Below, piece by piece: positions 17,084 to 25,528 of a stretch of 64,000 nucleotides of DNA; the stretch's first letter is position 1; the number at the start of each line of letters is the position of its first letter. The notes beneath the pieces are model-generated. The model was not told the DNA's origin and made no database searches. It saw only the letters and a list, made by a program, of their open reading frames with translations. The position numbers and the translations under genes are program-made. The stretch is from Melissococcus plutonius ATCC 35311 (GTDB taxonomy: Bacteria; Bacillota; Bacilli; Lactobacillales; Enterococcaceae): NCBI RefSeq assembly GCF_000270185.1, contig NC_015516.1:915001-979000 (forward strand), read 5' to 3'.

Positions 17084-18284
17084 ATGAATTTAAAGAAAAT
17101 TCGTCTTGCTGTTGGAATTCTAAGTATGAATCTGTTATTGATGTCTGGTTCAACAGTCGGCGCGGCAATTGCAGCAATTGCAAAATCTTTTCCCAAAGAA
17201 TCAATTTCTAAGGTTCAAATGGTGAGTTCGATTTCTCAGTTGGGACAGTTAGTTGCAACTTTGTTGTTTACTTGGTTAACTCATAAATTAACTAGAAAGA
17301 ATATTGGAATATTAGCTGTACTTATTGTAGCAGCTAGTGGCTTATTGCCAGCCTTTTATCATAGCAGTTTAAATATTATTTTAGCTTGTATGGTTACCCT
17401 AGGTTTTGGAGTAGGATTGATTAGTAATGTCAGCCCAGTTCTTTTACAAGAACATTTTGAAGGTGAAGATCGTGCAGCTGTCATGGGATGGGCGGTTGGT
17501 TTTAATACAATCGGTATGATAGGAATCACATTGATTGGTGGTATCCTAGGAAGTGTTCACTGGGAAAATCTATTCTTTGTATACGTCATTGCTTTGCTTG
17601 TATTTTTGGCTTTCTTTTTTATGGTACCTCAAGATGTTCGTATAAAAAATACGGATGAAGAGAATAAAGCATCTACCAGCTTTTTGCAAACAATCAAAGG
17701 ATTAAGTAAATATGTTTATATTATGTTAGTTATTACTTTTATTACTTCGCTCGCTGTCATGATTTTCATGTCAAATCAATCGATATTATTGGCAAGTAAA
17801 GGATATGGAACAGCCTATACAGCATCTGTTACAGCTATTGGAAATATCGGTGGTATCTTGGCTGCTTTTGGTTTGAAATACATTCGAAAAATAACAAAAA
17901 CGAATACAATGGCTTGGGGATTCATCGCTTTTGTTCTATCTTATGTATGCATTGTTTTCTTTGCAAATTTCCCTATGCACATTCTTGGTAATATGTTCTC
18001 AGGAATTGGGATTGTAATGGTAAATGCAACTATTCCGTTTGAATTATCTATTTTAGCTGATAAAAAAATAATTTCCGCTAGCTATTGCAATGAATACATT
18101 TATGTCCTCTGTGGCAGGTATGATTGCACCAATGATTTTAGCAGCCATTAACATTGCTCCAGGTTCATCTTCTTATATAGCAGGTATTATTCTTTGCCTA
18201 GCAACGGCAGTTCTATTATTTATCAGTCGACTAGGATCAAGAATTGAAAAGCAACATCAAGCAGCAATGGCTCAAACAGAATAG
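17084..18284 (+). pseudogene. MFS transporter interrupted by a frameshift
   Basis: A 12-helix major facilitator superfamily permease with the N-terminal half GSTVGAAIAAIAKSFP and the loop HKLTRKN. The first frame covers about 333 meaningful residues up to ADKKIISAS, then runs off-frame to a stop at 18151. The rest continues in the next frame as MNTFMSSVAGMIAPM and ends with IEKQHQAAMAQTE at 18284. One extra base within GCTAGCT (18077-18083) explains it: removing it gives a continuous SA-x-IAMNTF. Unlike the other frameshifts in this window, it is not in an A-tract. AAGGAAAA precedes the ATG. The substrate is unknown. Confidence 0.8.
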
Positions 18285-20588: not shown

Positions 20589-20888
20589 TCAGTTATGTTT
20601 TGTAATTGAATTAGTATGGACCTTTTCTGTTTGAATTAATTTATCAATTGAAACAGTTTCAAGAGGTAATAAACGATTAAACTCATCATAAAAACTATGA
20701 AACAAATGAGAACAAGCATAATATTGTTGAATGACTTTCTTTTTATTCAATGTATCATCTGAAAAAGTGAAAAAATTATTTAGTAATTCTAAAGGTTCTT
20801 GCCAAGATTGTAATTGTTCTGAGTAATTTTTAATATTCAGAATTTCTTGATAAGGAACAGCTTTTAGATTTTGTGGCTCTTTTTTCAT
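20589..20888 (-). CDS. Hypothetical protein, 99 residues
   Basis: A soluble, mostly helical-looking protein beginning MKKEPQNLKAVPYQEILNI and containing QQYYACSHLFHSFYDEF. I do not recognise a family. AGGAAAGGA about 8-16 bp before the ATG supports translation. It is downstream, on the reverse strand, of two structured elements and their reverse-strand terminators at 21.0-21.6 kb, which might control it. Confidence 0.6.
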   Translation of the reverse strand: MKKEPQNLKAVPYQEILNIKNYSEQLQSWQEPLELLNNFFTFSDDTLNKKKVIQQYYACSHLFHSFYDEFNRLLPLETVSIDKLIQTEKVHTNSITKHN

Positions 20889-20992
20889 CTCTTACATTCC
20901 TTTCCTCATTATCTGTAAGCATCTTAAAATAGTTTAATGCAGTTCTATGTGTAAAATATATATTTCTTTATACATTTACTATAAAAACAGAA

Positions 20993-21037
20993 AAAATGAA
21001 AAACGAAATTGGTAGCGATAAGTCAGCCAATCTCGTT
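20993..21037 (-). terminator. Reverse-strand terminator-like hairpin upstream of the 99-residue gene
   Basis: On the reverse strand AACGAGATTGG pairs with CCAATTTCGTT (21027-21037 with 21002-21012), with one G-U pair, followed by TTTTCATTTTTTC. On the forward strand the same stem has an A-C mismatch and no T run, so the reverse direction is preferred. Confidence 0.6.
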
Positions 21038-21105
21038 CAAATGCCTAATAATGAAGTCAAGGTTCTCCCATATACGAAATAATTGTGTTTTTCTAATTGA
21101 GGGAC

Positions 21106-21134
21106 TAGAAATTTAGACAAAAATCTTGTACAAT
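21106..21134 (+). promoter_or_regulatory. Candidate forward promoter of RNA element copy 1
   Basis: TAGAAA (21106-21111) and TACAAT (21129-21134) have a 17-bp spacer. Transcription would begin near 21141, just before the first hairpin of the element. Confidence 0.45.
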
Positions 21135-21140
21135 GAAGAA

Positions 21141-21243
21141 GCTAGTACTTCTGTGCTAGTAGGCAACTTGTATAGATAGTGACTGCTGACTATACAGGGC
21201 TTCGTAGTCTGGTTGGCGCCAAATTACGGAGTGCCTTTTTTTA
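21141..21243 (+). ncRNA. Structured RNA element, copy 1 (family unknown)
   Basis: An about 100-nt three-way-junction fold. P1 is AGGCA (21161-21165) with TGCCT (21232-21236). P2 is TGTATAG (21169-21175) with CTATACA (21190-21196), with AGTGACTGCTG in its loop. P3 is 21203-21212 with 21219-21228 (one mismatch), with hexaloop TTGGCG. A T7 run directly follows P1. A small hairpin CTAGTAC/GTGCTAG precedes P1. It shares both loop sequences and the P1/P2/P3 layout with copy 2. The strand is not settled: a forward small RNA is suggested by the promoter and T7, a reverse-strand leader by the downstream reverse terminator. Confidence 0.55.
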
Positions 21244-21383
21244 TTGTCTATCCATTTACAAAAAATACTTGTCAAGTAGGTGAGATAAACATGTAAATGG
21301 AATAGTTGGTACGTTTTTCATACTGCTGTGATTTTTATGGTAATTAATCCTCCTTTCAGTTTGTTAAAAAAACCAACAGTAGG

Positions 21384-21422
21384 ATAGAAAAAAACGATAT
21401 CTGGCATGATACCGATATCGTT
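21384..21422 (-). terminator. Reverse-strand terminator between the two RNA elements
   Basis: AACGATATC (21393-21401) pairs perfectly with GATATCGTT (21414-21422). Read on the reverse strand it is followed by TTTTTTT and CTATCC. It ends a reverse transcript passing through copy 2. Confidence 0.7.
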
Positions 21423-21525
21423 AACAATAGGCTAATAAAAAGAGGATTCTGTTAACCTATTATCCTTTAAACGAAAAAATGAAGGAAAATTTCGTTAGAG
21501 AAATAGGATATTCTCAACTAGCACT

Positions 21526-21605
21526 ATTGGCAACTTGTATTATCAGTGACTGCTGTTTATACAATTCCTAATTGTCCGATTGGCGTCGGACAAACAGGTG
21601 CCAAT
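21526..21605 (+). ncRNA. Structured RNA element, copy 2 (family unknown)
   Basis: Same fold as copy 1. P1 is ATTGGCA (21526-21532) with TGCCAAT (21599-21605). P2 is TTGTAT (21535-21540) with ATACAA (21559-21564), with the same AGTGACTGCTG loop motif at 21545-21555. P3 is TTGTCCGA (21572-21579) with TCGGACAA (21586-21593), with the same hexaloop TTGGCG. P1 and P3 sequences differ from copy 1 yet remain paired. The forward T run is weak here and no good forward promoter is visible. Strand is uncertain. Confidence 0.5.
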
Positions 21606-21671
21606 TTATTTTATTGTAAAAATAGTAAAGAAGAGCCAAACTTTACTATTTTATTTCTACTCTACCTCCCT

Positions 21672-21700
21672 AGTATAAACAAAAGCCTATTTATTCGCAA
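21672..21700 (-). promoter_or_regulatory. Reverse-strand promoter upstream of RNA element copy 2
   Basis: On the reverse strand TTGCGA (21700-21695) and TATACT (21677-21672) are 17 bp apart. The transcript would run through copy 2 to the terminator at 21384-21422. A hairpin at about 21618-21652 with AAATAGTAAAG/CTTTACTATTT arms lies between. Confidence 0.5.
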
Positions 21701-25403: not shown

Positions 25404-25528
25404 TAGACAGAATTTAAGTTATAGTGTACTATAGGTATATACCAACAACAACCTTTTTATTTTTCAATTTACTCTGAATAGGGTAAATACTCCTTTTCCA
25501 CCGGTAATTGATACCGGTGGTTTTTTTG
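25404..25528 (+). ncRNA. Terminator of the ATPase gene and possible small RNA
   Basis: CCACCGGTA (25498-25506) pairs with TACCGGTGG (25512-25520), followed by TTTTTTT, a strong terminator. Between the ATPase stop and this hairpin lies a promoter-like TAGACA (25404-25409), 17 bp, TACTAT (25427-25432), which would make an about 90-nt RNA from near 25438. It could be a small RNA or only the 3' UTR of the ATPase mRNA. No ORF with a ribosome site is present. The next 290 bp show nothing else. Confidence 0.4.

Follow-up and report, generated by a model that had tools for sequence, protein, structure and literature searches.

A tandemly duplicated three-way-junction RNA in Melissococcus plutonius is probably a chromosomal antisense attenuator

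What do two diverged copies of one three-way-junction element do side by side in the chromosome of Melissococcus plutonius ATCC 35311? We analyzed the window, a stretch of 64,000 nucleotides (RefSeq assembly GCF_000270185.1, contig NC_015516.1, forward-strand positions 915,001 to 979,000; coordinates below are those of the window), in which a first-pass annotation had placed the copies at 21161-21236 and 21526-21605. Both copies were present there with their stems P1, P2, and P3, and AGTGACTGCTG in P2 and TTGGCG in P3 were common to the two; the start coordinate that had been given for the element, 21002, is the edge of a terminator described below (terminator 1). Folded alone, each copy formed the three-way junction as described, at -32.1 kcal/mol (z = -4.65) for 21161-21236 and -28.8 kcal/mol (z = -4.66) for 21526-21605, and none of 200 shuffles of either was equally stable. 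The two copies are far from chance.

Twenty-seven homologous copies served as the source of a covariance model, which recovered both window copies (103 and 78.3 bits). In a MAFFT alignment of these homologues, 92.5% of the cells in stems were paired, compared with 81.1% after shuffling and 32 to 46% when partners were slid by 1 to 3 columns. Both sides had changed in 23 of the 33 base pairs, and the covariation score was reached by none of 500 shuffles. The claim of a selected, structured RNA was thus borne out by folding z-scores, compensatory changes, and covariation. The accompanying claim of conserved loops has to be revised: the P2 hexaloop is matched within the pair, yet it is hypervariable from locus to locus.

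The covariance-model search of related genomes that had been proposed as a check found covarying homologues in 61 of the 105 genomes of the window's family (Enterococcaceae) and, across 16 genera, in 69 of the 395 genomes of its order (Lactobacillales); because the copies share kinship, counts across the family are not independent. Copies numbered 7 to 30 per genome in one genus, and 32, 29, and 30 in three genomes that were re-searched at a looser cutoff. Members of the high-copy genus, as seen in an open reading frame (ORF) search, include Enterococcus moraviensis, E. caccae, E. ureilyticus, and E. quebecensis, among others. BLASTN against 40 relatives returned multicopy homologues whose similarity begins 5' of the junction, where a TACAAT resembling a promoter element and a 5' hairpin lie. 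As in the first-pass annotation, no known riboswitch or small RNA (sRNA) family was matched: Rfam 15, with riboswitches, the T-box, and known sRNAs included, had no family above the gathering threshold for the window's locus or for 18 homologous loci, and relaxed thresholds gave no related family even at E = 5. The main text of an enterococcal RNA-map paper lists antisense sRNAs and offers no means of linking them to this family. There was no DNA match among 72,556 plasmid records, nor any match in a phage collection. The copies belong to a large and apparently undescribed small-RNA family that occurs in enterococci, Listeria-like bacteria, and their relatives. The names E. faecium and Listeria for carrier genera are our assumption, made partly from gene content.

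The locus had been left as either a tandem small RNA on the forward strand or a tandem leader on the reverse strand. Each of these halves stands, and they hold together; only the choice between them falls away. The best explanation, to which we give a probability of about two in three, is a tandemly duplicated, chromosomal antisense-RNA transcription attenuator, as predicted from sequence. Each RNA would lie antisense to the beginning of a gene's mRNA and would probably silence that gene by means of a private loop code that the pair shares. The forward-strand features are as follows.

21106-21134, forward strand: predicted sRNA promoter of copy 1 (-35 TAGAAA at 21106-21111, 17-nt spacer, -10 TACAAT at 21129-21134)
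21141-21242, forward strand: sRNA copy 1, about 100 nt (5' hairpin 21141-21160, junction 21161-21236, T-run 21236-21242), with covariation
21180-21185, forward strand: P2 hexaloop TGACTG of copy 1, the variable code position
21213-21218, forward strand: P3 hexaloop TTGGCG of copy 1
21500-21614, forward strand: copy 2 (junction 21526-21605), with the P2 and P3 loops of copy 1 and its own -10 and 5' hairpin decayed
21547-21552, forward strand: P2 hexaloop TGACTG of copy 2
21580-21585, forward strand: P3 hexaloop TTGGCG of copy 2

The -10 TACAAT was perfect in 54 of 59 first copies, and a T-run followed 3' of the junction. The promoter of copy 2 is often lost across loci, the window included, where copy 2 is probably kept as a target sequence within the reverse-strand leader. 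The predicted RNA thus has its own promoter and lies opposite an mRNA leader, as expected of an antisense attenuator. On the reverse strand, a promoter past copy 2 is followed by antisense copy 2, a terminator, antisense copy 1, a second terminator, and an ORF.

21672-21700, reverse strand: predicted leader promoter (TTGCGA, 17-nt spacer, TATACT; predicted start near 21665), at an equivalent place in other loci
21653-21665, reverse strand: leader 5' end GUAGAGUAGAAAU, complementary to 21379-21390 just past terminator 2 (duplex -10.8 kcal/mol)
21386-21422, reverse strand: terminator 2 (21393-21422), AACGATATCGGTATCATGCCAGATATCGTT and then a T-run, between the two antisense copies
20990-21037, reverse strand: terminator 1 (21002-21037), AACGAGATTGGCTGACTTATCGCTACCAATTTCGTT and then T-rich sequence, 5' of the ORF
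20589-20888, reverse strand: helical 99-aa ORF behind the leader (Shine-Dalgarno [SD] sequence at about 20889-20907), linked to the tandem pair in homologues

The reverse-strand arrangement recurred across the family. In 169 of 211 copies, against 11 of 211 mononucleotide shuffles, the antisense copy had an intrinsic terminator no more than 300 nt away, whose T-run fell in a tight interval of 113 to 127 nt (quartiles); a recognized reverse terminator was absent in about 20% of the 211 copies examined. The leader terminator stands between the antisense target and the gene, as in the antisense attenuator class. A sigma-70-like reverse promoter was found just past the T-run of the first copy met on the reverse strand, scoring at least 10 in 50 of 137 such copies, compared with 7 of 211 shuffled controls and 1 of 74 copies inside the leader. 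The distance from T-run to ATG, SD included, was 53 to 62 nt in ten loci with no clear promoter between, so transcription of those ORFs probably relies on read-through. The gap in the window is 115 nt from terminator 1 to the ATG and includes a weak site resembling a promoter (9 of 12 matches). In three loci (L026, L027, and L028), the stretch from terminator 1 to the ORF contains a third antisense copy, partial and degenerate, that is AGTTGCCTAAGTCAATGCG-like.

The ORF belongs to a family of helical proteins of 82 to 105 aa with many charged residues. When the ORF alone was searched for in named genomes, 48 of 51 loci had both RNA copies upstream on the opposite strand. Searches of Pfam, NCBIfam, and PADLOC gave no assignment, their matches being at chance level, and a sequence search against the PDB gave no informative match. 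An AlphaFold model has three helices (pLDDT, 77), and structure searches with it returned generic helical bundles, with nothing at E <= 0.001.

An antisense RNA beside a small ORF, many copies per genome, apparently tight control, and, in ten loci, a gap with insufficient room for an ORF promoter of its own could also describe a type I toxin-antitoxin system, in which the forward RNA prevents a toxin mRNA from being translated or causes its breakdown and the terminators are secondary. We consider this unlikely. Type I toxins of that class would be hydrophobic and under about 60 aa, whereas the ORF encodes a longer helical protein of 90 to 100 aa, rich in charged residues; the start of the ORF is not covered by the sRNA; and other members, in the E. 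faecium-like genus and elsewhere, precede PTS EIIA, MarR, LOG-type, RarD, or KdgT-like genes (read from the sequence by eye). The enterococcal type I loci par/Fst and RatA/TxpA, which we take to share with this locus an antisense RNA directed against a small gene, differ from it in that the ORF here is larger and more polar, the leader has terminators, and Rfam noted no homology.

In the tandem pairs, the P2 hexaloop was identical within 48 of 59 (mean of 2.6 and maximum of 11 in 2,000 shuffles), and the P3 loop was identical within 50 of 59 (9.1 expected). Identity in the P2 loop was 94.5% within pairs and 56.5% between noncognate copies, whereas the stems were nearly as alike in noncognate as in cognate copies; within one locus type, the P2 loop was about 50% identical and the remainder 90 to 93%. 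Since gene conversion would have homogenized the stems too, the matched loops are better explained by selection. We had also considered the small ORF as the reader of the P2 loop and ruled it out, as near-identical ORFs accompany many P2 codes.

Exposed hypervariable loops, identical in two gene copies and carried by an RNA with its own promoter and terminator, might instead be seeds with which a trans-acting sRNA pairs with distant mRNAs, the reverse-strand features being incidental. This seems distinctly unlikely: the promoter of copy 2 is often lost while its loops and junction are retained, the reverse promoter and terminator recur at fixed spacing, and reverse-complement hexamers of the P2 loop, sought as cis targets in about 3.4 kb around the locus, were not enriched (91 versus 101 expected).

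Both strands of such a locus could fold, and the stems indicate which RNA has been under selection. On the model-fitted alignment, stem cells held 602 G-U and 54 A-C combinations. Copy 1 had a ratio of 296:10 and copy 2 one of 199:35, and a MAFFT alignment not fitted to the model gave 121:14; the structures used for both alignments were derived from the forward strand. With G-U far above A-C, the forward RNA is indicated as the selected structure; an A-C excess would be predicted if the reverse RNA alone were folded. The same figures speak against a ligand-sensing tandem riboswitch on the reverse strand with a silent forward strand. Aptamer-like junctions in series, each followed by a terminator, would suit it, and tandem riboswitches and tandem T-boxes likewise place two similar RNA modules serially before one gene. 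We regard it as very improbable, given the G-U excess, the conserved forward -10 and T-run, the lack of an Rfam riboswitch match, a hypervariable loop not expected of a ligand pocket, and a partner that is apparently the opposite-strand RNA. A dispersed repeat serving just as a bidirectional terminator or a site of recombination between toxin cassettes would fit the many copies, some of them between orphan toxin/immunity cassettes (L196, L213, L218, and L228), and is nearly negligible in view of the compensatory changes, the pair-matched loops, and the linkage to one ORF family.

As an antisense attenuator, the locus would work as follows. The nascent reverse-strand leader would fold into a mirror-image junction. 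The copy 1 sRNA would contact this junction by its P2 and P3 loops, both complementary to loops of the leader, and transcription would then be halted at the terminators, so that the ORF stays silent. The loss of the promoter of copy 2, with its loops kept, suggests that the RNA of copy 1 would act on both leader modules; with one sRNA serving both, the modules would have to retain identical loops. A loop can change with its partner retained, since one sequence provides the sRNA from one strand and the target from the other. Different loops at different loci of one cell would then make cross-talk unexpected. The genes that follow the leaders (those for small helical proteins, LXG-associated toxin/immunity cassettes, and some metabolic genes) probably encode products that need a tight off-state.

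An attenuator of this class would have an antiterminator fold, exclusive of the terminator, whose formation the antisense RNA prevents. As a first candidate, pairing between the antisense P1 strand and the pre-terminator sequence showed only a weak advantage in cognate loci (P = 0.033). When the leader in the window was folded at equilibrium, the terminator formed at about 0.95 with the sRNA site either blocked or free, so any switch would have to be kinetic, unless the terminator works independently of the sRNA. A second candidate antiterminator is the leader 5' end, complementary to the stretch past terminator 2. Perfect complementarity of at least 9 nt between the two was present in 28 of 57 tandem loci, compared with 1 of 57 shuffled.

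Antisense transcription attenuators are textbook plasmid copy-control devices. In pIP501, RNAIII brings about attenuation of repR (PMC4981023), and simultaneous contact at two loop pairs is required (Heidrich and Brantl 2007, as relayed in PMC4981023). The locus, on its predicted side, resembles the Inc18 RNAIII/repR leader (pIP501 and pAMbeta1) in having a cis-antisense RNA against a leader that ends in an intrinsic terminator, recognition by two loop pairs, and facing promoters (PMC4981023). It differs in its RNA, a three-way junction of about 100 nt against the 136 nt of RNAIII, and in its setting, which is chromosomal, with genes other than rep and without a match in the plasmid collection. 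The family also has two serial modules with matched loops and many loop-coded paralogues per genome. The locus lies on a 1.89-Mb contig, and the genes behind its leaders are not replication initiators; given this location and the lack of a controlled replication gene, it is not a member of the pIP501/pT181 plasmid family. In the pT181 attenuator and its engineered orthogonal derivatives, an antisense RNA attenuates transcription and loop identity sets specificity (PMC3753616), as we predict here. Loop changes in pT181 gave independent pairs, and the same paper refers to an "apparent dearth" of naturally occurring attenuators on which synthetic biology could draw (PMC3753616). The loop-code set of the present family differs from the pT181 derivatives in being natural and large.

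Units within genomes were compared in their P2 loops. No loop was shared in 179 pairs of units from 16 genomes, where 5.5 were expected (P = 0.002); with locus types considered, a between-type rate of 1.6% lowers the expectation to about 2.8 collisions, so that orthogonality is suggested, not proven. The comparison suggests that loop-coded units do not cross-talk. Tentatively, and at somewhat less than even odds, the up to about two dozen paralogous antisense attenuators per chromosome in this order may constitute a natural orthogonal address system, in which each unit has its own two-loop code, codes diversify fast under selection against cross-talk, and one sRNA gates code-sharing tandem modules or toxin/immunity cassettes. 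If true, tens of loop-coded members in a single genome would make this chromosomal family a natural collection of independent RNA switches and would let the evolution of orthogonality be observed. It would also point to genes under an antisense lock in enterococci and their relatives, apparently including Listeria. These genes would include those of LXG-type toxin/immunity cassettes and the gene for a new small helical protein.

Leaders elsewhere are followed by different small ORFs. Among neighboring ORFs, PT-TG domains occurred in 7 of 120 and LXG domains in 4 of 120. In L196 (2300-12800), as well as in L213, L218, and L228, arrays of orphan toxin/immunity cassettes lie behind an LXG operon, with one RNA copy on the opposite strand between successive cassettes; adjacent cassettes in L196 and L218 can have an identical loop code. 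Solitary leaders in L063, L121, and L128 are followed by short ORFs that by eye resemble the RNA-binding (CAT) domain of BglG/LicT antiterminators and adjoin PTS EIIA-like or RarD-like genes. In one genome, a Cas3-HD-like ORF of 809 aa (also identified by eye) adjoins a tandem pair (L029, 1670-4099). Elsewhere in the window, Rfam matched Ref84, an enterococcal sRNA, at 25440-25528, just past a 901-aa P-type ATPase-like ORF, and an M-box (ykoK leader) magnesium riboswitch lies at 190-360. An MFS-like transporter gene at 17084-18284 is apparently split into overlapping frames of 355 and 64 aa, possibly by a frameshift.
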